Assembly: GCF_014196765.1 (NCBI RefSeq)
Contig: NZ_JACIEE010000006.1
Span: 296,963 to 360,962 of the forward strand
Direction of reading: 5' to 3'
From: Mycoplana azooxidifex
GTDB lineage: Bacteria > Pseudomonadota > Alphaproteobacteria > Rhizobiales > Rhizobiaceae
DNA length: 64,000 nucleotides
Part shown: positions 30,929 through 46,673 of the stretch, piece after piece
How positions within the stretch are numbered: the first letter of the stretch is position 1
Layout: every line of letters begins with the position of its first letter
Made by a program: the position numbers and the translations under genes
The notes under the pieces: model-generated
What the model saw: the letters and a program-made list of their open reading frames with translations, nothing else
Databases searched by the model: none
Told to the model about the DNA's origin: nothing

Positions 30929-31004
30929 GAGCGCGTAGCTCAGCCGGTAGAGCAACTGACTTTTAATCAGTAGGTCCAGGGTTCGAATCCCTGCGCGCTC
31001 ACCA
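30929..31004 (+). tRNA. tRNA-Lys (anticodon UUU)
   Basis: A 76-nt cloverleaf with encoded CCA. Acceptor arms are GAGCGCG (30929-30935) and CGCGCTC (30994-31000), followed by A and CCA. The anticodon arm ACTGA-CTTTTAA-TCAGT gives anticodon TTT. T-arm CCAGGGTTCGAATCCCTG is canonical. The 3' half is duplicated at 46628-46673, so this gene is the chromosomal integration site of the element to its right, and insertion left it intact. Confidence 0.98.
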
Positions 31005-31005
31005 A
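30960..31005 (+). repeat. Left attachment-site repeat (attL core)
   Basis: A 46-bp segment from the tRNA-Lys anticodon loop to one base past CCA, perfectly repeated at 46628-46673. It breaks at mismatches on both sides, which defines the maximal core of recombination. Confidence 0.95.
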
Positions 31006-35411: not shown

Positions 35412-36097
35412 GGGCGGTCAGTGGCAGTGGCACGTTCGTTGCGCCAGATCTCCTCCACAATTCGGTCGTCTTGCACGCGATGGACAGCCAGCACATGTGC
35501 TGCGACATCTGGTACCGAGTGATCAACGACAAGCTCCACCACGTTGTCTTCCTTCCGACGTCTAGATCTTTCTTGAAACGGGAAGTCGGCTATCCGTCGG
35601 AATGTCTCATTTCCACGTGGTTGAGGATTGAAAAGCGTCGAACCGCTGTTAATGGGAGTGAGCCATATCCTCTCACGATGTGAGGCTACCAAGCCGATGG
35701 TATCTATTGTCAGCACCGTTTGAGGTTGTTCACGATAGGCACGAGCTCTCAACAATCTCCAAATTCTCTCGGAAGATAACCAAAAGAAGCTGCGCGAGTT
35801 GAGAGTCTGGTACCACTCCTGTGGAGTAAGCCCGTCTTGCAAACAACGCGCCAGCAGATGATCGCGCATGGGCTTCTGGTCCCTGATAACCGCGCCCAAC
35901 AAGCCTTGGCGTTGCAATTCGACGGACTCGGGGCGCCGCTGCGATTCAAGCGTAAAGCGCCGCTCGCCATCGACACCGTACAAGTCGAGCAACGCGCTCG
36001 CACTCATCAGCCCATGTTGTTTAATGGCAGGCCACGCGCCGTCGTGTGCCATATGATAAAGGCGCGGATATGCCGTAACTAGTTCCTCTTCAGTCAT
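35408..36097 (-). CDS. DUF7002-like protein, possibly ADP-ribosyltransferase-fold
   Basis: 229 residues. The start MTEEELVTAYPRLYHMAHDG, followed by AWPAIKQHGLMSASALLDLY, resembles DUF7002. It also recalls the beginning of DarT/RES-type ADP-ribosyltransferase folds, in which a Tyr-His pair precedes a GL(L/M) turn. SRSFFWLSSERIWRLLRARA in the middle and VVELVVDHSVPDVAAHVLAV near the end are the other conserved-looking parts. It overlaps the kinase-PurZ-like gene by 8 nt, so both are made from one transcript. Toxin or modifying activity is only a possibility. Confidence 0.65.
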   Translation of the reverse strand: MTEEELVTAYPRLYHMAHDGAWPAIKQHGLMSASALLDLYGVDGERRFTLESQRRPESVELQRQGLLGAVIRDQKPMRDHLLARCLQDGLTPQEWYQTLNSRSFFWLSSERIWRLLRARAYREQPQTVLTIDTIGLVASHRERIWLTPINSGSTLFNPQPRGNETFRRIADFPFQERSRRRKEDNVVELVVDHSVPDVAAHVLAVHRVQDDRIVEEIWRNERATATDRP

Positions 36098-37730
36098 TCC
36101 AGTTCCTCTGGTCGATCAGCCCCTCGCGCCCGAAGCCTTTGGAAATTAGGGAGACCGGCACACCGCATATTCGCTCAAGGTCGGCAATGAATTTCTTCGC
36201 TTCGGCGTTTAGATCATTGAAATCCACCGCTTCAACATTTTCCGCTCCGAGATAGTCTACGAATGTCAGGGCGATATCGGTCGCTCCATTCCAGTAGACT
36301 GAGCGCCTCATCCTTTCCCAATCAAATTCTGCCATTCGGCGGCGTTTACCTGATACACTTCCAATTTCGGTTTTTCCGATTTGCTCAACCGGCAAGCCTG
36401 AACGCTGCGCGATAGCGTCAAAACTGATTTCAACCCCCATGGGTCCCGACTGGCCACCGACCCGTATTGGATAGGTACGAGCAACCACGATAACGCGCCT
36501 GAGCTTTGTAAAGGGGACACCTGCATCCGAGAGACATCCTGCGGCTGAGGTTTCCCGAGAGGTGACATGAGGATAAGAACCATGGTGGATACTGAGGTCG
36601 GTGCCCTGGGTACCCTCCAACATTACTTTTTTGCCGCAAGCCAGCGCTTGCTCAATTCGTTGACTGACATTGTCAATATATGACTTGAGTACCTCCACGT
36701 GGCGAGCGAGTCTAACAGGAGGCCCCCACTCGAGCTCACCATCTCTTCCAAGGATCTTGCGGGCAGTTGCTGATCCTACGCCCTGCTTAGTCGACGAAAT
36801 TCCAGCGAGCAGCTTTTCCTCAATTTCTCTGTCCTTTTCCTCAATGATCATTGCCTGGGGGTCGATCACAAGCCCCCCTTTTTTCAGCCATGGATGATCA
36901 TCGATTTCTTTTAGAAGTGTCTCGAGCGATATTGTCGAGCCGGCTGCGATGTAAATTTCGGCCTTTTGGTTTGATCCTGTGCCGGATGGAAGCTGCCGAT
37001 AGGTGTACTCAGGGTTCTTCACCTTGTGTCCCGCATTTGGTCCCCCAACTCGGACCAAAACGTCATACTCGTGCGCAAGAAGGGCGCAAATATTGCCCTT
37101 TCCCTCGCTTCCCCATTGCCCCCCGACGATTAAATCGACGTGGTGAGGAGGCCTCGCCACAGAGAGCCGGCCGGCTGCTGCATAAGTTACACAAGACGGA
37201 ACTTCGGACTTCTCAGTGTGGACAACGACATCCGCAACCTCGGCAAGGCTGTCTATCTCCGCCTCGATTAGGTCGGCTTTTGCCTCCTTGTAGGTCACCG
37301 CTTGGTCTCCAAGGCCAGCTCGCTCTCGGTAGCGCTTCTCGAGAACGCCATCAGGGGCCGTCAAATGGAAATGGTGAACGTTTTCTTTTCCGAACCGATC
37401 CCTGAGAGCCCTAACTTGGGCGACGATTCGTGCGCTATCAACGAGCATGAAGCTTTTGTCGTTATCTGGAAGCGATGCACTTACCGCGTCGGCAACCCAA
37501 GAACCGTTCGTTTCCATATCAAGCTCAGCACCAGCCTGTTGCAGCGCCTTACGCTCGTCAGCAACTTGCTTAACCTTCAATAAGTATTTTCTGGTGGAGA
37601 CCTTTTCACAAGGATAGCGGCGCATAAGTTCGTCTGAAAATGCTGTTTTTCCGACGGCTATCGGACCTGAAAGGACAATTATCTGCTTCAACTCTTGCTC
37701 CCGCCCCAAGTGTCGACCACGATCGACCAT
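36090..37730 (-). CDS. P-loop nucleotide kinase fused to PurZ-like adenylosuccinate synthetase
   Basis: 546 residues. Residues about 14-180 form an NMP-kinase-like P-loop domain (GPIAVGKT at 22-29; LEKRYRERAGLG as a lid-like segment). Residues about 197-546 are an adenylosuccinate synthetase domain: VGGQWGSEGKGN, GGPNAGHKV, SSTKQGVGSAT, EGTQGTDLSIHHGSYPHVTS and VARTYPIRVGGQSGP. The catalytic Asp of PurA (WGDEGKG) is Ser208 here. A Ser at this site marks phage PurZ, which uses dGMP to make the precursor of 2-aminoadenine. Conventional PurA has no kinase fusion. The ATG at 37730 is taken; a TTG at 37691 with GGGAG upstream is an alternative. Activity is inferred. Confidence 0.85.
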   Translation of the reverse strand: MVDRGRHLGREQELKQIIVLSGPIAVGKTAFSDELMRRYPCEKVSTRKYLLKVKQVADERKALQQAGAELDMETNGSWVADAVSASLPDNDKSFMLVDSARIVAQVRALRDRFGKENVHHFHLTAPDGVLEKRYRERAGLGDQAVTYKEAKADLIEAEIDSLAEVADVVVHTEKSEVPSCVTYAAAGRLSVARPPHHVDLIVGGQWGSEGKGNICALLAHEYDVLVRVGGPNAGHKVKNPEYTYRQLPSGTGSNQKAEIYIAAGSTISLETLLKEIDDHPWLKKGGLVIDPQAMIIEEKDREIEEKLLAGISSTKQGVGSATARKILGRDGELEWGPPVRLARHVEVLKSYIDNVSQRIEQALACGKKVMLEGTQGTDLSIHHGSYPHVTSRETSAAGCLSDAGVPFTKLRRVIVVARTYPIRVGGQSGPMGVEISFDAIAQRSGLPVEQIGKTEIGSVSGKRRRMAEFDWERMRRSVYWNGATDIALTFVDYLGAENVEAVDFNDLNAEAKKFIADLERICGVPVSLISKGFGREGLIDQRNWND

Positions 37731-37770: not shown

Positions 37771-38319
37771 ATGAATGCTCAAGTCGCTGTTAAAATCAAA
37801 TCCGGACCCAGCATCATGTTGGCAAGTGGAAACTGGTTCGACCTTCTCGATCCATGGAACAGCGAGTTCACAATCGAGGATATAGCACAAGGCTTGTCGA
37901 ATATCTGCCGGTTTTCCGGTCAATGCAAGGGTTTCTACTCAGTTGCCGAGCATTCAATCCATGTCTGTGACACCGTGGAGCAGTTCCATCTTGAGGCACT
38001 TCTGCATGATGCCGCAGAGGCATTTGTCGGTGACATCACGCGTCCGCTAAAGCAGCTTCTACCTCAATACAAAGAAATAGAAGCTAACGTAGAGGACGCA
38101 ATATCTCGTCGCTTCAACTTAGACCCTAGATCAAAGTCAGCTGTCAAAGCGGCAGATTTGCGTGTTCTGGCCGCGGAGCAAGCCCAACTCATGCCGTTGG
38201 GCACTGATTTTTGGGCTGCCCCTTCGAACGTAAAGCCTGCTTTCATTGAGATCGGCTTCCTTCCCCCGGCAGAAGCGCGCGAAATCTTCTTGGATAAATT
38301 CTCTTTGCTCACCCGGTAG
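37771..38319 (+). CDS. HD-domain phosphohydrolase (YfbR/DatZ-like)
   Basis: 182 residues from the ATG at 37771, 6 nt after AAGGGAG. HD-fold metal ligands are visible: H61 in FYSVAEHSIHV, H79-D80 in LEALLHDAAEAFVGD and a later Asp in VKAADLRVLAAE. The order LASGNWFDLLDP, IEDIAQGLSNICRFSG is typical of phage and mobile-element (d)NMP/dNTP phosphohydrolases. Phage DatZ, which removes dATP in 2-aminoadenine phages, belongs to this fold group. It is transcribed divergently from the kinase-PurZ-like gene with a gap of only about 40 nt, so the two probably share control. Confidence 0.85.
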   Translation: MNAQVAVKIKSGPSIMLASGNWFDLLDPWNSEFTIEDIAQGLSNICRFSGQCKGFYSVAEHSIHVCDTVEQFHLEALLHDAAEAFVGDITRPLKQLLPQYKEIEANVEDAISRRFNLDPRSKSAVKAADLRVLAAEQAQLMPLGTDFWAAPSNVKPAFIEIGFLPPAEAREIFLDKFSLLTR

Positions 38320-38410
38320 GCCTCCGGCTGGAAGTGTAGGCTGGCATTCGCTCGAAAATATCGCTTCAGCTGTGTCGACGAGGGTTCGACGGAGAACAAG
38401 GGGGCAAGCA

Positions 38411-40339
38411 TTGGCTTGGGATACAGGACTTGATCAGGGCAGTGTTGCCTACGGAATCGCGGCGGCGCCGGAGCCTCGGGTGCGGGTGATCGCGGGACCA
38501 GGAACGGGCAAATCATTCGCGATGAAGCGGCGCGTAGCGCGTCTGCTCGAGTCGGGCATCGCGCCTGACGAGATTCTGGCGGTTACCTTCACTCGGGTGG
38601 CGGCGGAGGACTTACACCGCGAACTGCAAAAGCTGGACACTCCGGGCTGCGAGGAACTTCAGGGGCAAACGCTGCACAGCCTCGCAATGCGCATCCTCTC
38701 GCGGAAGCACGTTCTAGAGGCAGTCGGTCGAGCTCCCCGGCCATTGAACGCCTTCGAGACAAAGGCGATGATCTGCGACCTTGCCGGCGACAACGGCGGG
38801 AAGCGCTTGGTCAGGAGCATGATCCAAGGATATATGGCTGCCTGGGCTCAGAGCCAGGGAGACGAGCCGGGCTTCGCGAAGACGAACGAGGAAAAGCAGT
38901 TCCAGGCCCATCTGCTGGATTGGCTGGATTTCCATCAGGGCATGCTGATCGGCGAGCTCATCCCGTACTTGGTCCGTTACCTGAGGGACAACCCGGCTGC
39001 CGCCGAACGGACGGAGTTCAGGCATCTCTTGATCGACGAGTTCCAGGACCTCAACAAAGCCGAGCAAACAGTTCTCTACTATCTTGGCGAGGCGGCGGAG
39101 ATCTGCATCGTCGGCGATGACGACCAATCCATCTACAGCTTTAAAAATGCGCACCCCGATGGCATCCGGGAATGGAAGAATCTCCATCCCGAGTGCGCGG
39201 ACCTCGAGATGGCGGACTGTCACCGATGCCCGACAACTGTGGTCGACATGGCGAACGCGTTGATCGCCGTGAACAAGAACCGCCAGCCTCGCGCCCTCAA
39301 CCCGCTGCAAGAAAAGGGTCCAGGAGAGGTAGCTATCGTCCAGGTGCCCTACCTTTCCAGTGAGGCGAAGTGGATCACCAATAAGGTGGCGGGCCTTCTC
39401 GAGAGCGGCGTTCACCCGAGCGAAATCATCATTCTCGTCCAGCGCGCCGTCGCCGGCCGTCCTATTCTCGAATCGCTGAGACAGGCGGGTGTTCCCGCCA
39501 AATCCTACTACGAGGAAAGTCAGCTCGCCTCCGAGGTGGCGCAAGAGCGCTTCGCGACTTTCAAGCTCCTGCTCAACAACGAGGACCGGGTGGCGCTCCG
39601 ATATCTGCTTGGCGCCGGCGATGATGAATTTCGACGGAATGCCTATGCGCGAGTACGAACGCGTTGCGAGGCGAGCGGAGACAGCCCATGGACCGCGATG
39701 CACAAGCTCGCGGACGAAGTGCTGACGCTACCCTATACAAAGCCGCTCGTGGAGCGGTTCAAGGCGATCCAGGCGGAGCTGGATGCTCTGAACGGACTGA
39801 AGACGGATCTGCCCGCATTCGTTGATGCGCTCTTCCCAACAGGCGACGAGAACCTGTCGGAGTTGCGGGACTTGGCCCTTGCGAAACTGGAGACGGCTGG
39901 GGATCCGGGGGAACTGCTCGGCGGCATGATGGAAGAAATCACCCAGCCCGACATTCCTCCTACCGTCGAGGAAGTGCGACTCATGAGCCTCCACAAGAGC
40001 AAGGGCCTCAGCTCGCCGTTCGTATTCGTCGCTGGCTGCGTCGAGGGTATTCTGCCGCCGGCGCCCGATCCGGACTGGCCTAAAGCGGTAAAGGATGCCG
40101 CCCTAGAGGAAGCGCGGAGGCTCTTCTATGTCGGTATCACGCGCGTGAAATCCGACTTGGCGAAAGGTTGGCCCGGCAGTCTCTTCATCAGCTATCCACA
40201 GCAGATGTCGATCAAGGATGCCTACGGCGCTAACGTGGCGTTTAGGACTAAGTCTGGCGTCATGGCGAACCTTCTGCCGAGTCGATTCCTAGGGGAACTC
40301 GGCGCGGCTGCGCCCAAACCCATCGCTGGAGGGAAGTAA
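38411..40339 (+). CDS. UvrD/Rep-like superfamily 1 helicase
   Basis: 642 residues from a TTG at 38411 with AAGGGG 6 nt upstream. An ATG at 38246 is in frame but overlaps the HD gene by 74 nt and adds unlikely sequence. Motif I AGPGTGKS (28-35), Ia FTRVAAEDL, II LLIDEFQDLNKAEQ, III VGDDDQSIYSFKNAHP, V SLHKSKGLSSPFVFVAG and VI EEARRLFYVGITRVK are all intact. A full 3'-5' helicase/translocase is expected. Stand-alone UvrD-like helicases in islands often belong to defence modules; here a small coupled gene follows after 5 nt. Confidence 0.9.
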   Translation: MAWDTGLDQGSVAYGIAAAPEPRVRVIAGPGTGKSFAMKRRVARLLESGIAPDEILAVTFTRVAAEDLHRELQKLDTPGCEELQGQTLHSLAMRILSRKHVLEAVGRAPRPLNAFETKAMICDLAGDNGGKRLVRSMIQGYMAAWAQSQGDEPGFAKTNEEKQFQAHLLDWLDFHQGMLIGELIPYLVRYLRDNPAAAERTEFRHLLIDEFQDLNKAEQTVLYYLGEAAEICIVGDDDQSIYSFKNAHPDGIREWKNLHPECADLEMADCHRCPTTVVDMANALIAVNKNRQPRALNPLQEKGPGEVAIVQVPYLSSEAKWITNKVAGLLESGVHPSEIIILVQRAVAGRPILESLRQAGVPAKSYYEESQLASEVAQERFATFKLLLNNEDRVALRYLLGAGDDEFRRNAYARVRTRCEASGDSPWTAMHKLADEVLTLPYTKPLVERFKAIQAELDALNGLKTDLPAFVDALFPTGDENLSELRDLALAKLETAGDPGELLGGMMEEITQPDIPPTVEEVRLMSLHKSKGLSSPFVFVAGCVEGILPPAPDPDWPKAVKDAALEEARRLFYVGITRVKSDLAKGWPGSLFISYPQQMSIKDAYGANVAFRTKSGVMANLLPSRFLGELGAAAPKPIAGGK

Positions 40340-40344
40340 GGACG

Positions 40345-40884
40345 GTGGCGACACGAGAGGAGCTTTACGCGAAATTCGGGATCACGGCCGAGGCCGCCCA
40401 GCTATTCGAGACTGAGCTCGGCACTTTAATACTGTGCTCCCAGGCGCTTGAGCACGGCTGGCACGTCGCGCCGGATGGCGAGAAGGCGCGCGCCGCCCTC
40501 TACAAGATCGACAGGAGCACGCTCGGACGGCTCTTGACCACTCTCAAGGGTCTTGTCCATCTCGAGGGTGGTTTGGTGGATCGATTTGATTTGGCTCTCA
40601 AGGCGAGGAACCGACTGAACCACGGGTTCTACGAACGGCATAATTTCAAGATCCAGACCGACGAAGGACGCGATGTGATGATCGCCGATCTGGAAGCTCT
40701 CCACGAAGAGTTGTTCCAGGCATGGCGCATCGCGGGCGCGATGACGTCGCTGGTGTCGGAATTCATGCGTGAGGATGCTGCCCGAACTCCGTTGCACAGA
40801 CGTGTTGATCGAGACGGACCCGACGGTGCCACGCAGGCCTTGGGAGCAAGCGTGGACAACTCACTCTCGTCTAGTGGCAGCTAA
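40345..40884 (+). CDS. Small protein with HEPN-type RNxxxH motif, coupled to the UvrD-like helicase
   Basis: 179 residues from a GTG start 5 nt after the helicase stop, with GGAGGGAAG inside the helicase end acting as its ribosome site. Helical throughout. KARNRLNHGFY contains R88-N89-x3-H93, the catalytic pattern of HEPN RNases, placed after a long helix (GGLVDRFDLALKARN) as expected. The last 30 residues are low-complexity. No family name is certain. If HEPN is right, it could be an RNA-cutting effector kept in check or triggered by the helicase. Confidence 0.65.
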   Translation: MATREELYAKFGITAEAAQLFETELGTLILCSQALEHGWHVAPDGEKARAALYKIDRSTLGRLLTTLKGLVHLEGGLVDRFDLALKARNRLNHGFYERHNFKIQTDEGRDVMIADLEALHEELFQAWRIAGAMTSLVSEFMREDAARTPLHRRVDRDGPDGATQALGASVDNSLSSSGS

Positions 40885-41022: not shown

Positions 41023-41781
41023 ATGGCTGATTTCGATTTTAGCAGGAACACAGAAGACGCGAGAGTGCTTACGATTGCGTTCACTGGCGAAAAGCCGCTA
41101 GGTGCGGCAGAGGTCGCAACCGTTCTCCACGCTTTGGATACGGATTATCGCACTCTGAATGGGCGTGGTCTTGTCTTGGGCAGGCTGGAGATCGGATCAA
41201 CCTGGTTCTCGCTATACGATGCTTTAGCAGCTGTCGGCGGCGTCGCGGGAAGCATTGCAGAGATCGCCAAGGCCATCGATGACATCACTTCCTTCGGGGT
41301 GAAGCTCGCAAACGCCTTAAAACCGAAACCGTCCGCTGCCGTAGAAAAAGGCATAGCTGACGTTGCGCGGTCTGTGAAGGAAATGGCCAAGGTCTCTCGG
41401 AAGACAAATAGCGGAATCAAAGTCCGGAAGACGCTGACGACCGACGGATCGGTCGAAACACTCGATATCGACATCACTCCTGTTGAGGCGATTGTGGCGA
41501 GCAAGGTTGCAAGCCAGAAGCTCAAAGCGGCGACGCGCACGAAAGATACGCTGGAAGTCTACCATGGCAACCTTCTTGGTGCGGTACGTCAGATTTCGGG
41601 ACCAACCATCGATCCATCGCTCATCAGCGCTCTTGTGCGAGCGCTGATGATAAATGGAGGCGTCAGTAGCGCGCAGATGGTCGCCTCCACTCTCGAAGGC
41701 GAGGGACGGGGGGATGTTGCAGCAGCTATTCGCCAAGAGATCGACAAGGGTCGGGGCCAGGTGACCATTCAGCGCGAATAA
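41023..41781 (+). CDS. Hypothetical protein of the island
   Basis: 252 residues, ATG with GGGGGAA directly upstream. N-terminal LTIAFTGEKPLGAAEVATVL and VLGRLEIGSTWFSLYDALA look like an alpha-beta domain. A mildly hydrophobic Ala/Gly/Ile segment follows (GGVAGSIAEIAKAI). Then come a basic central part and a helical C-terminus (IDPSLISALVRALMINGGVS). No catalytic motif recognised. It lies 138 nt after the HEPN-motif gene on the same strand and may belong to that module. Confidence 0.65.
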   Translation: MADFDFSRNTEDARVLTIAFTGEKPLGAAEVATVLHALDTDYRTLNGRGLVLGRLEIGSTWFSLYDALAAVGGVAGSIAEIAKAIDDITSFGVKLANALKPKPSAAVEKGIADVARSVKEMAKVSRKTNSGIKVRKTLTTDGSVETLDIDITPVEAIVASKVASQKLKAATRTKDTLEVYHGNLLGAVRQISGPTIDPSLISALVRALMINGGVSSAQMVASTLEGEGRGDVAAAIRQEIDKGRGQVTIQRE

Positions 41782-45392: not shown

Positions 45393-46523
45393 GTGGCTAC
45401 AATTAAAAAGCGGATTTGGACGACTGCCAAGGGACAGAGCGAAGCATGGGTGCTGGCTTACACCGACCGCGCCGGCAAGCGGCACAAGGAGCAGTTCTCT
45501 AGCCTGCCGCTGGCAAACACACGCCGTATTGAGGTTGAGGGCAAGATTGACACCAATGCATTCCGAGCCGAAGCCAAGAGCGCTACTGTCGGCGACGTAA
45601 TCGACGCCTATCACAAGGGAATGCTTGCCGAGCTTGCAAAAAGGGAAGTCACGCAAATGCACGTGGTCAACACGGCCGGGCTACTCAATAAGCATGTGCG
45701 CCCGGTTCTCGGCCACTTCAAAATTATGGACGTGCTGCCGGGTGACGTGAAGGGCCTATCCGAAGACATGAAAGCGGCCGGCGTTGGCATTCCGACTGTG
45801 CGCCGCACCGTGGGGGCCTTGAAGCGCTGCTTTGACCATGCCCGCATCGCCAGCCTGACAGGAGATAATCCCGCTAAAGACATCAGTGTGAAAGCGGCCC
45901 GCGCATCTGGCAACTCCCGCGTCACCCCGCCGACCAAGGAACAATATGATGCGCTGGTTGCCGCCGCCGACAGTATCCGGCCCGCAAACACCAATCAGCC
46001 GGGCTCGCTAACCCTTCGCATTCAATTCGCCGGACGGACCGGCCTACGCGCTTCTGAGCTCTGGGCCTTGCGCTGGCGCAATATCAACTTCAAGCGCGCG
46101 CTGGTGTCTGTCTCTGCGCGCGTGGATGCCTATGCAGGTGTTGAGGACGTGACCAAGACGCAAGCCGGTGAGCGCGACATAGACCTAGCTGACGAGCTTG
46201 TCGAAGCTTTGCAGGCGTGGCGCGAGGCGACGGCATTCGGCGCGGATGACGACTTCGTTTTCCCTGACAGCAAGGGTGGCACTGTTAGCCACACCAACTT
46301 CACGAAACGTGAGTGGGCCAAGGTGAAGAAGGCGGCTGGCGTTGATATAGGCTGGCACGCCCTGAGACACTTCGCAATCTCGGTTTGGATTGAGACCGGA
46401 TTCTCTCATAAGGAAGTGCAGGGCCTCGCCGGGCATAGCTCTATCAACGTGACAACGACGCGCTACGGGCATCTATTCGCATCCGATGACCGCCGCGCCC
46501 GCATGAACAAAATCGGCCTTTAA
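45393..46523 (+). CDS. Tyrosine site-specific recombinase (integrase)
   Basis: 376 residues from a GTG start with GGAG about 9 nt upstream. The N-terminus is an arm-binding-like domain, then a SAM-like core-binding domain (VGDVIDAYHKGMLAELAKRE). The catalytic domain has all active residues: R219 (GRTGLRASELW), K255 (TKTQAGERDI), H322 and R325 (WHALRHF), H348 (GLAGHSS) and Y358 (TTTRYGHLF). It is transcribed toward the right end and stops about 104 nt before the att core. It should recombine the 46-bp tRNA-Lys repeats. Confidence 0.96.
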   Translation: MATIKKRIWTTAKGQSEAWVLAYTDRAGKRHKEQFSSLPLANTRRIEVEGKIDTNAFRAEAKSATVGDVIDAYHKGMLAELAKREVTQMHVVNTAGLLNKHVRPVLGHFKIMDVLPGDVKGLSEDMKAAGVGIPTVRRTVGALKRCFDHARIASLTGDNPAKDISVKAARASGNSRVTPPTKEQYDALVAAADSIRPANTNQPGSLTLRIQFAGRTGLRASELWALRWRNINFKRALVSVSARVDAYAGVEDVTKTQAGERDIDLADELVEALQAWREATAFGADDDFVFPDSKGGTVSHTNFTKREWAKVKKAAGVDIGWHALRHFAISVWIETGFSHKEVQGLAGHSSINVTTTRYGHLFASDDRRARMNKIGL

Positions 46524-46627: not shown

Positions 46628-46673
46628 CTTTTAATCAGTAGGTCCAGGGTTCGAATCCCTGCGCGCTCACCAA
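46628..46673 (+). repeat. Right attachment-site repeat (attR core)
   Basis: A perfect 46-bp copy of 30960-31005 (3' half of tRNA-Lys with CCA). It lacks the 5' half, so it is not a tRNA gene. The chromosome resumes here; about 300 nt without a recognisable gene follow before NAD kinase. Confidence 0.95.

Follow-up and report, generated by a model that had tools for sequence, protein, structure and literature searches.

The DNA analysed here (the window) is a stretch of 64,000 nucleotides from Mycoplana azooxidifex (NCBI RefSeq assembly GCF_014196765.1, contig NZ_JACIEE010000006.1, positions 296,963 to 360,962 of the forward strand), and it contains a gene, here called kPurZ, whose product joins a nucleoside monophosphate (NMP) kinase-like domain to an adenylosuccinate-synthetase domain of the PurZ clade. 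The gene stands with three others, which encode a DUF7002 protein, a protein of about 460 amino acids (aa) without assigned function and an HD phosphohydrolase (Table 1). The initial annotation had described the kPurZ open reading frame (ORF) as a synthetase with Ser208 in WGSEGKG and the other PurA motifs intact, and all of this was indeed present: the chain carries WGSEGKG at residues 206-212, GGPNAGH and GTQGTDLSIHHG. In the homologues of kPurZ, the start corresponds to its residue 14 (TTG at 37691), and the true start may therefore be this codon and not the ATG at 37730.

Table 1. Features of the kPurZ locus and of the island that carries it (positions in the window).
Feature	Positions	Strand	Remarks
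kPurZ, 546 aa	36090..37730	-	NMP-kinase-like domain fused to PurZ-clade adenylosuccinate-synthetase domain
Kinase domain of kPurZ	37176..37685	-	about residues 16-185
PurZ-clade synthetase domain of kPurZ	36102..37139	-	about residues 198-543
Ser208 codon of kPurZ	37107..37109	-	position of E. coli PurA Asp13
DUF7002 protein, 229 aa	35408..36097	-	predicted ADP-ribosyltransferase fold; 8-bp overlap with the 3' end of kPurZ
Type I module protein of about 460 aa	33921..35411	+	496-aa ORF; conserved part from ATG 34038, 457 aa
HD phosphohydrolase, 190 aa	37747..38319	+	divergent from kPurZ; homologues begin at ATG 37771
Left attachment (att) site	30960..31005	+	tRNA-Lys 3' end (gene 30929-31004)
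Right att site	46628..46673	+	identical to the tRNA-Lys 3' end over 46 bp
Integrase	45393..46523	+	tyrosine-recombinase type (PF00589, 6.1e-23), beside the right att site

The assignment of the two halves of kPurZ was based on profile searches and on a structural model. The protein matched the Pfam family Adenylsucc_synt at 3.8e-57 and the PurZ family phrog_1211 of PHROGs at 8.5e-66, and the purA equivalog model TIGR00184 gave it 201 bits against a cut-off of 395.55, while the PRK04293 model of NCBIfam gave it 275 bits, which is below the cut-off of that model. Its N-terminal part had weak Pfam matches to P-loop kinases (AAA_18, 2.9e-6; AAA_33, 2.1e-5), both narrowly below the cut-offs. In the AlphaFold2 model, built with 70 sequences (mean predicted local distance difference test, pLDDT, 91.5; predicted template modelling score, pTM, 0.87), the N-terminal domain resembled the Sulfolobus adenylate-kinase-related protein 3lw7 (E 3.9e-5, template modelling (TM) score 0.79 by target length), and the C-terminal domain resembled P. 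horikoshii PurA and the PurZ of phage phiVC8 (6fm1), with TM-scores by target of 0.91 and 0.83, as well as PurZ0 (0.79) and S-2L PurZ (0.79). The kinase domain retains G27 and K28 of the P-loop (Walker A) in 70/70 rows of the alignment A10, D98 and R133 in 69/70 each, and R137 in 67/70. Thus, the N-terminal P-loop kinase domain of the initial annotation was recovered in the weak Pfam matches, in the NMP-kinase fold of the model and in the conserved Walker A and Arg residues, and the conservation suggests that both halves of kPurZ may be catalytically able.

The fusion proved to be widespread. A scan of a genome collection gave 414 relatives. The best 80 were kept, many of them from metagenome-assembled genomes; these matched the fusion over nearly its full length with 42-90% identity, and judging by their record titles they came from Rhizobiales, sphingomonads, actinobacteria, acidobacteria, planctomycetes, myxobacteria, Chloroflexi and archaea. 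In one of the loci (L044) the kPurZ frame is split in two. Plasmid records contributed 8 full-length relatives among 90 matches. The occurrence of kPurZ is sporadic: it was found in 4/289 genomes of the class of the window and in 1/7 of its genus, the genome of the window itself being counted in both. A full PurA was encoded alongside kPurZ in 16/16 genomes checked and also in the genome of the window. The counts of neighbours given below refer to 89 kPurZ loci, which are not independent (clustering by single linkage left 86, 66 and 20 groups at identities of 95, 80 and 60%), and to six-frame ORFs at most 8 kb from kPurZ; L032, the record of which is identical to L007, had been dropped beforehand. 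The alignment A10 covers 70 of the 89 loci, with the eight plasmid rows, L044 and ten more loci, mostly near relatives, left out, and the alignment A9 has 64 rows.

The Ser at the position of E. coli PurA Asp13 was kept in close homologues and does not stem from a sequencing error; its absence from them had been named beforehand as an argument against PurZ kinship. The Ser was present in 9/9 proteins of the window and its eight plasmid relatives, which were found by tblastn without a motif filter, in 3/3 more genome relatives from a profile search (L096, L098, L099) and in 70/70 kPurZ rows of A10. The last count is partly selected, because Q[WFY]GSEGKG was one of the two patterns of the genome scan; four of the 70 rows have EYGSEGKG, which that pattern does not cover. 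In the PurZ family, the catalytic Asp13 is replaced by Ser (or Gly). The same Ser occurs in 6/6 PurZ and 4/4 PurZ0 sequences, and Asp occupies the position in 17/17 PurA loci, in P. horikoshii PurA and in a ToyG-like enzyme.

We placed kPurZ in a tree of 40 synthetase domains in which the Asp/Ser column was masked, and which did not include L095 and some other PurA and kPurZ rows. The 16 kPurZ rows formed a clade of their own (support 100/100). They were joined, again at 100/100, by phage PurZ and PurZ0, one Bacillus phage row and a relative without the fusion from S. medicae (L012) in a single larger clade, whose rows have Ser at the Asp13 position; canonical PurA fell outside it throughout, as did P. 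horikoshii PurA and the ToyG-like enzyme. A quick unmasked tree of 51 rows recovered the same groups; the branching order among kPurZ, PurZ and PurZ0 was unsettled (83/87). The kinship with PurZ proposed at the outset thus holds even with the Ser masked, and the synthetase domain lies outside canonical PurA, placement within which had been named beforehand as an argument against this kinship. Identity with canonical PurA was rejected on the basis of the tree, the missing Asp and the separate purA in the genome. Taken together, these computational results identify kPurZ as a new, kinase-fused, cellular third clade of the PurZ family. Synthesis of 2-aminoadenine (Z) is known from phages, and the published tree, in the part of the survey available to us, comprises 147 phage sequences and adds four archaeal ones to the PurZ group, with no mention of a kinase fusion in that part (PMC12884076).

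A rival explanation is that kPurZ is an ordinary, IMP-using variant of adenylosuccinate synthetase on an island, to which the kinase domain has been added for regulation or salvage. The solved homologue closest in sequence is P. horikoshii PurA, and Asp492, which lies at a position that we take to be that of the PurA Asp contacting GTP, is kept in 70/70 rows of A10, as would be expected of such a variant. However, the position of kPurZ outside PurA at 100/100, the replacement of the catalytic Asp by Ser in 70/70 rows, the presence of a full PurA in 16/16 genomes and that of an ADP-ribosyltransferase (ART) partner in 87/89 kPurZ loci make this explanation very improbable.

The base pocket of kPurZ resembles that of its phage relatives. 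The base-pocket residues N232, A233, T314, Q375, T390, R423 and V424 are each conserved in 70/70 rows of A10, and they preserve those that line the base pocket of S-2L PurZ, as far as this is described in the accessible part of the structural report (PMC8342488). The loop around the position of S-2L Val241 has the PurZ-type sequence YPIRV, with extra residues before SG. With PurZ and PurZ0 of S-2L, phiVC8, SH-Ab 15497 and Archimedes, which are 2-amino-deoxyadenylosuccinate synthetases, kPurZ shares a common clade, Ser in place of Asp13, the base pocket and the YPIRV loop. In contrast to them, it is fused to an NMP kinase, forms a clade of its own, adjoins an ART gene, falls below the NCBIfam cut-off for PurZ and, among the best 80 of the 414 genome relatives, occurs in bacteria and archaea, with one phage contig in addition.

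Two further plasmid loci contain related unfused genes. In S. medicae (L012:4296-7057), the Ser-type PurZ-like gene is divergent from an HD hydrolase gene and is itself followed by a gene for a dCTP-deaminase-like protein that probably has a membrane tail; members of the latter family also occur near kPurZ in L079, L082 and L087. In Rhizobium leguminosarum (R. leguminosarum, L013:1030-10987), a PurA-like gene with GDEAKG lies among folE, purB, queE, queC, an IMP dehydrogenase gene and a gene for a nitrile hydratase subunit, a cluster that presumably resembles those for 7-deazapurine (toyocamycin-type) natural products. Its product, which we take to be a ToyG-type 7-deazapurine synthetase, is like kPurZ a short PurA-like enzyme outside canonical PurA; unlike kPurZ, it keeps the Asp, lies outside the Ser clade and belongs to a folE-purB-queE-queC-nitrile hydratase cluster.

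The most constant neighbour of kPurZ is the DUF7002 gene, which lies directly behind it on the same strand in 83/89 loci; in 4 others the two are no more than about 3 kb apart. The two loci of the 89 in which it was not found are L047, which is cut short by the end of its contig, and the phage contig L094. The AlphaFold2 model of the DUF7002 protein (64 sequences, pLDDT 97.4) had as its top Foldseek match DarT1 with NAD+ (E 3.7e-5, probability 1.00), followed by other ADP-ribosyltransferases and, further down, by Tpt1. On the strength of this model, the predicted membership of DUF7002 in the ADP-ribosyltransferase superfamily is clear, and the family within the superfamily is not settled. H15, Y121 and E188 are among the residues invariant in 64/64 sequences; they may well have catalytic roles, as their arrangement recalls what we take to be the H-Y-E arrangement of the superfamily. 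A search of 50,697 phage records (E 0.01) gave no match to DUF7002, and a search of open-licence full texts gave no paper naming it. Relatives of DUF7002 also occur on plasmids of Streptomyces (L100:4992-5636) and Caballeronia (L101:5001-5642), where no synthetase gene is annotated within 5 kb.

The third component of the module is of one of two kinds, which never occur together in the 89 loci. In type I, to which the window belongs (37 loci), it is the protein of about 460 aa, accompanied in 35/37 loci by the HD phosphohydrolase. In type II (46 loci), it is a protein in which an ImmA/IrrE peptidase domain is fused to a macrodomain; neither kind was found in 6/89 loci. A type II profile of six members matched solved structures of macrodomains (1.3e-39) and of IrrE (9.7e-11), and in Pfam M78 was matched by 4/4 proteins and Macro by three of those four, one of them above the cut-off. 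The ImmA-macrodomain protein was absent from all 37 type I loci, the window included, and Pfam scans of 13 island proteins gave no macrodomain match in the window, which in this respect departs from DarTG systems, where a macrodomain (DarG) or NADAR antitoxin adjoins the ART. The protein of about 460 aa gave two single-member Pfam matches (0.018 and 0.24) among 22 members of its family, and nothing better than 0.15 among PDB sequences. The idea, taken from reading the letters, that it is an ATP-grasp protein similar to PEP synthase found no support: profile comparisons with the PPDK_N family gave probabilities of 16% (a run with at least one wrong-frame row) and 3% (a run with four sequences in two groups). 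For the HD protein, the best PHROG was deoxyribonucleoside 5'-monophosphate phosphatase (5.7e-62).

Two side observations concern type II loci. Some of them (L048, L058, L071, L076, L078) have a second, free-standing copy of the kinase domain of about 190 aa near DUF7002, which suggests that the kinase step is also used alone. In archaea and Chloroflexi (L056, L073, L087, L088, L091), the type II module adjoins a family of proteins of about 250 aa without assigned function.

In the window, the module is part of a mobile element, as had been supposed from the start. The exact duplication of the tRNA-Lys 3' end (46 bp), the integrase and the low GC content (0.56 as compared with 0.65-0.66 in the flanks) therefore define an integrative island of about 15.7 kb. 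The surroundings of kPurZ in other genomes contain genes of defence type. Among 134 of 136 chosen kPurZ-flanking proteins (two were dropped for size) from 68 of the 80 genome loci, 218 PADLOC families were matched at 1e-10, as compared with 5 among 111 proteins from the purA neighbourhood of 13 genomes; these are counts of families and not of proteins, several models of one family can match the same protein, and the test set includes the MazG, PurB and dCTP-deaminase-like neighbours. The 25 of the 218 families that were listed include restriction methyltransferases, CapP, BilD, MADS and candidate systems, none of them in more than 4 members, and the annotated neighbours on plasmids include SIR2, AbiE, AbiJ-domain and AAA-UvrD gene pairs. 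The four module proteins themselves matched nothing in the PADLOC-DB of 2023 at E 0.1. These neighbours are signs of a defence-type context of the module, short of proof of a defence function.

We propose that kPurZ and its partners form a mobile, probably anti-phage module that would make a 2-amino-(deoxy)adenine nucleotide and couple it to an NAD+-using effector, and we assign to this reading a probability of roughly 55%. The synthetase would most likely use a guanine nucleotide, either dGMP or possibly GMP, and condense it with aspartate to an N6-succino-2-amino-adenylate, from which PurB of the host or of the module would release Z monophosphate. The fused NMP kinase would convert the latter to the diphosphate, toward dZTP or ZTP. 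The Z nucleotide would most likely act as a signal or a substrate, controlling or feeding the DUF7002 transferase, which would use NAD+, and the ImmA-macrodomain protein of type II, or the protein of about 460 aa together with the HD phosphohydrolase of type I, would be a sensor or an off-switch. In the initial annotation, the PurZ-clade enzyme with its kinase had been correctly seen, and the inference drawn there, that the enzyme acts on a deoxyguanylate-type substrate and that the kinase phosphorylates a substrate or product, is partly supported. Four things had been missed: the ADP-ribosyltransferase, the two mutually exclusive third partners, the wide distribution and the defence-type genes around the module. 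A precedent for the proposed principle is KongMing, in which, according to the portion of the report open to us, phage dAMP is converted to the second messenger dITP and NAD+ is depleted as a consequence (PMC12948488). Both would derive a non-canonical deoxynucleotide from a deoxynucleoside monophosphate (dNMP) and couple it to an NAD+-consuming effector; the kPurZ module differs in having a synthetase with its own kinase in place of KomA and a phage kinase, and an ART-fold protein in place of KomB/KomC.

The resemblance of DUF7002 to DarT1 could also be read in another way, namely that DUF7002 is the ADP-ribosylating toxin of a toxin-antitoxin or anti-plasmid module, neutralised or regulated by the other genes including kPurZ. 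The nucleotide enzyme would then make no signal; it would sense the guanine-nucleotide pool or serve as an antitoxin of metabolic type. DUF7002 would be a compact ART with DarT1 as its nearest structure, its gene overlaps the 3' end of kPurZ, and the two plasmid genes mentioned above have no annotated synthetase within 5 kb. In addition, the macrodomain of type II loci is of the eraser type of DarTG2, going by the part of the DarTG report at hand (PMC11543638). The module differs from DarTG, however, in that DUF7002 is a Pfam family of its own, kPurZ is an additional component, and the macrodomain is fused to an ImmA/IrrE peptidase in type II and missing from type I. The lack of any ImmA-macrodomain protein in the 37 type I loci, the oddity of a two-domain enzyme with intact kinase and synthetase motifs as an antitoxin, and the PurB and MazG neighbours in some loci, which suggest a pathway, make the toxin-antitoxin explanation rather unlikely.

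A pathway is suggested by genes in a minority of the loci. A MazG-like gene was found in 9/89 kPurZ loci; seven of these loci, from actinobacteria (L045, L059, L072, L075, L079, L082, L089), have it upstream and in the same orientation. PurB was found in 7/89, each time above an NCBIfam PurB cut-off: that of TIGR00928 in four actinobacterial loci, all with a MazG-like gene (L045, L072, L082, L089), and that of NF006764 in three Bradyrhizobium loci (L026, L029, L030). Some of the loci counted with these two profiles had also served to build them, and the profiles may miss others. The control purA loci had a MazG-like gene in 0/13 and PurB in 1/13 cases, and a house PurB can therefore lie nearby by chance.

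The phage contig IMGVR_UViG_3300033067_002286 (L094) has a more complete set. In it, kPurZ is located downstream of a DNA polymerase gene (phrog_17), and the contig also encodes a dNMP kinase (phrog_139), a weakly nucleotidase-like protein and a PurB of its own, which scored 363.9 bits (cut-off 326.2); DUF7002 was not found in the 38,809-base record, which is possibly a fragment. This set is what would be expected if the product of kPurZ were a succino-purine deoxynucleotide that is cleaved by PurB and raised to the triphosphate by kinases, and the contig is a candidate for a Z-DNA phage with an in-phage pathway. Its kPurZ fell inside the cellular kPurZ clade in both trees, with an unsettled sister row. 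This IMG/VR contig, with its combination of kinase-PurZ fusion, PurB, dNMP kinase and DNA polymerase, is represented by the entries L094:8025-9716 and L180:8204-9544.

Another explanation is that the module serves DNA or nucleotide modification, with Z nucleotides made for incorporation into the DNA of the cell, the island or a phage, and with DUF7002 acting on Z-DNA or on the nucleotide. This would be in line with the close kinship of kPurZ and phage PurZ, with the DNA polymerase and dNMP kinase genes that accompany kPurZ in the phage contig, and with the HD protein and MazG-like genes, which recall the dATPase DatZ and the dGTPase MazZ of S-2L. Indeed, kPurZ loci share with the S-2L cluster of purZ, mazZ and datZ, as presented in the accessible portion of its description (PMC8342488), a PurZ-clade gene next to an HD hydrolase (35/89) or a MazG-like gene (9/89). 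However, the resemblance to DatZ and MazZ is weak: in a search against three sequences, the HD profile matched DatZ at 5.1e-5 with 10.8 bits. Unlike the S-2L cluster, the kPurZ module has an ART partner. As for the dedicated DNA polymerase (DpoZ or PrimPol) of Z-DNA phage systems, no polymerase was seen among the families common to at least 4 loci, which were not profile-scanned, or in Pfam scans of 13 proteins of the island. We thus regard a modification system as improbable.

Several observations weigh against the reading of the module as a coupled, Z-making defence system. The NCBIfam PurZ model NF038379 gave kPurZ 206 bits against a cut-off of 300, kPurZ being a separate clade outside the curated phage group of that model. 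At the position of S-2L Arg146, which binds the 5'-phosphate of the nucleotide from the other subunit, Arg occurs in only 10/70 kPurZ rows; we take E. coli Arg143 to be its counterpart. An Arg four residues earlier is kept in at least 90% of kPurZ and may replace Arg146 in its role, or the substrate may differ from a plain NMP. The position that we align with E. coli Arg303, a mapping that we assume, has Arg or Lys in 54/70 rows; as this and Asp492 resemble PurA, GTP as the energy donor and ribonucleotide substrates are possible. The HD protein matched the PHROG of dATP triphosphohydrolase (DatZ type) at 3.5e-7, more weakly than that of dNMP phosphatase, and the MazG-like profile barely matched S-2L MazZ (0.0045, 4.3 bits) in the search against three sequences. 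PurB and MazG are confined to a minority of the kPurZ loci, and the Bradyrhizobium copies of PurB may be house genes that lie nearby by chance. The superposition of DUF7002 on DarT1 gave TM-scores of 0.44/0.48 with 14% identity, because of which its family and its target within the ART superfamily are unsettled. Also, a guanine target would not fit type II in a straightforward way, because DarG is inactive on DarT1-type guanine adducts, judging from the available part of the report (PMC11543638). The weakest link is the coupling of the nucleotide to the transferase, for which gene order is the sole argument.

A more far-reaching and distinctly tentative interpretation is that cells, too, make 2-aminoadenine nucleotides, and that they do so in a mobile immune module, widespread in bacteria and archaea, in which a self-contained synthetase-kinase supplies the Z nucleotide as a signal for, or a substrate of, a dedicated DarT-like ADP-ribosyltransferase. 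If this is true, Z-using phages may have shared chemistry with host immunity, and the phage kinase-PurZ fusion does sit inside the cellular clade. A cellular, mobile PurZ clade with a kinase and a nearly constant ART partner would signal that this chemistry serves cells, and it would join non-canonical nucleotides with ADP-ribosylation in phage defence; DUF7002 would gain a predicted fold and function. Among the papers listed by searches of open-licence full texts, none described the module, judged by title or the opening of the abstract, which suggests, short of proof, that it is undescribed in the literature searched.

Two other sets of genes were noted near kPurZ. The UvrD helicase gene at 38246-40339 in the window was considered as a part of the module and rejected: it strongly matches GajB (PADLOC, 5.4e-45), but it is not conserved beside kPurZ elsewhere. 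No GajA partner was seen, the ORFs at 40345-40884 and 41023-41781 having no PADLOC match beyond a weak one to DpdC. In six other loci (L005, L007, L008, L023, L028, L075), kPurZ is accompanied by a gene pair. One gene encodes a metallophosphoesterase-like protein, and the product of the other has a DPPWYP motif, which by eye resembles that of N6-adenine methyltransferases; the pair is possibly a separate two-gene system.

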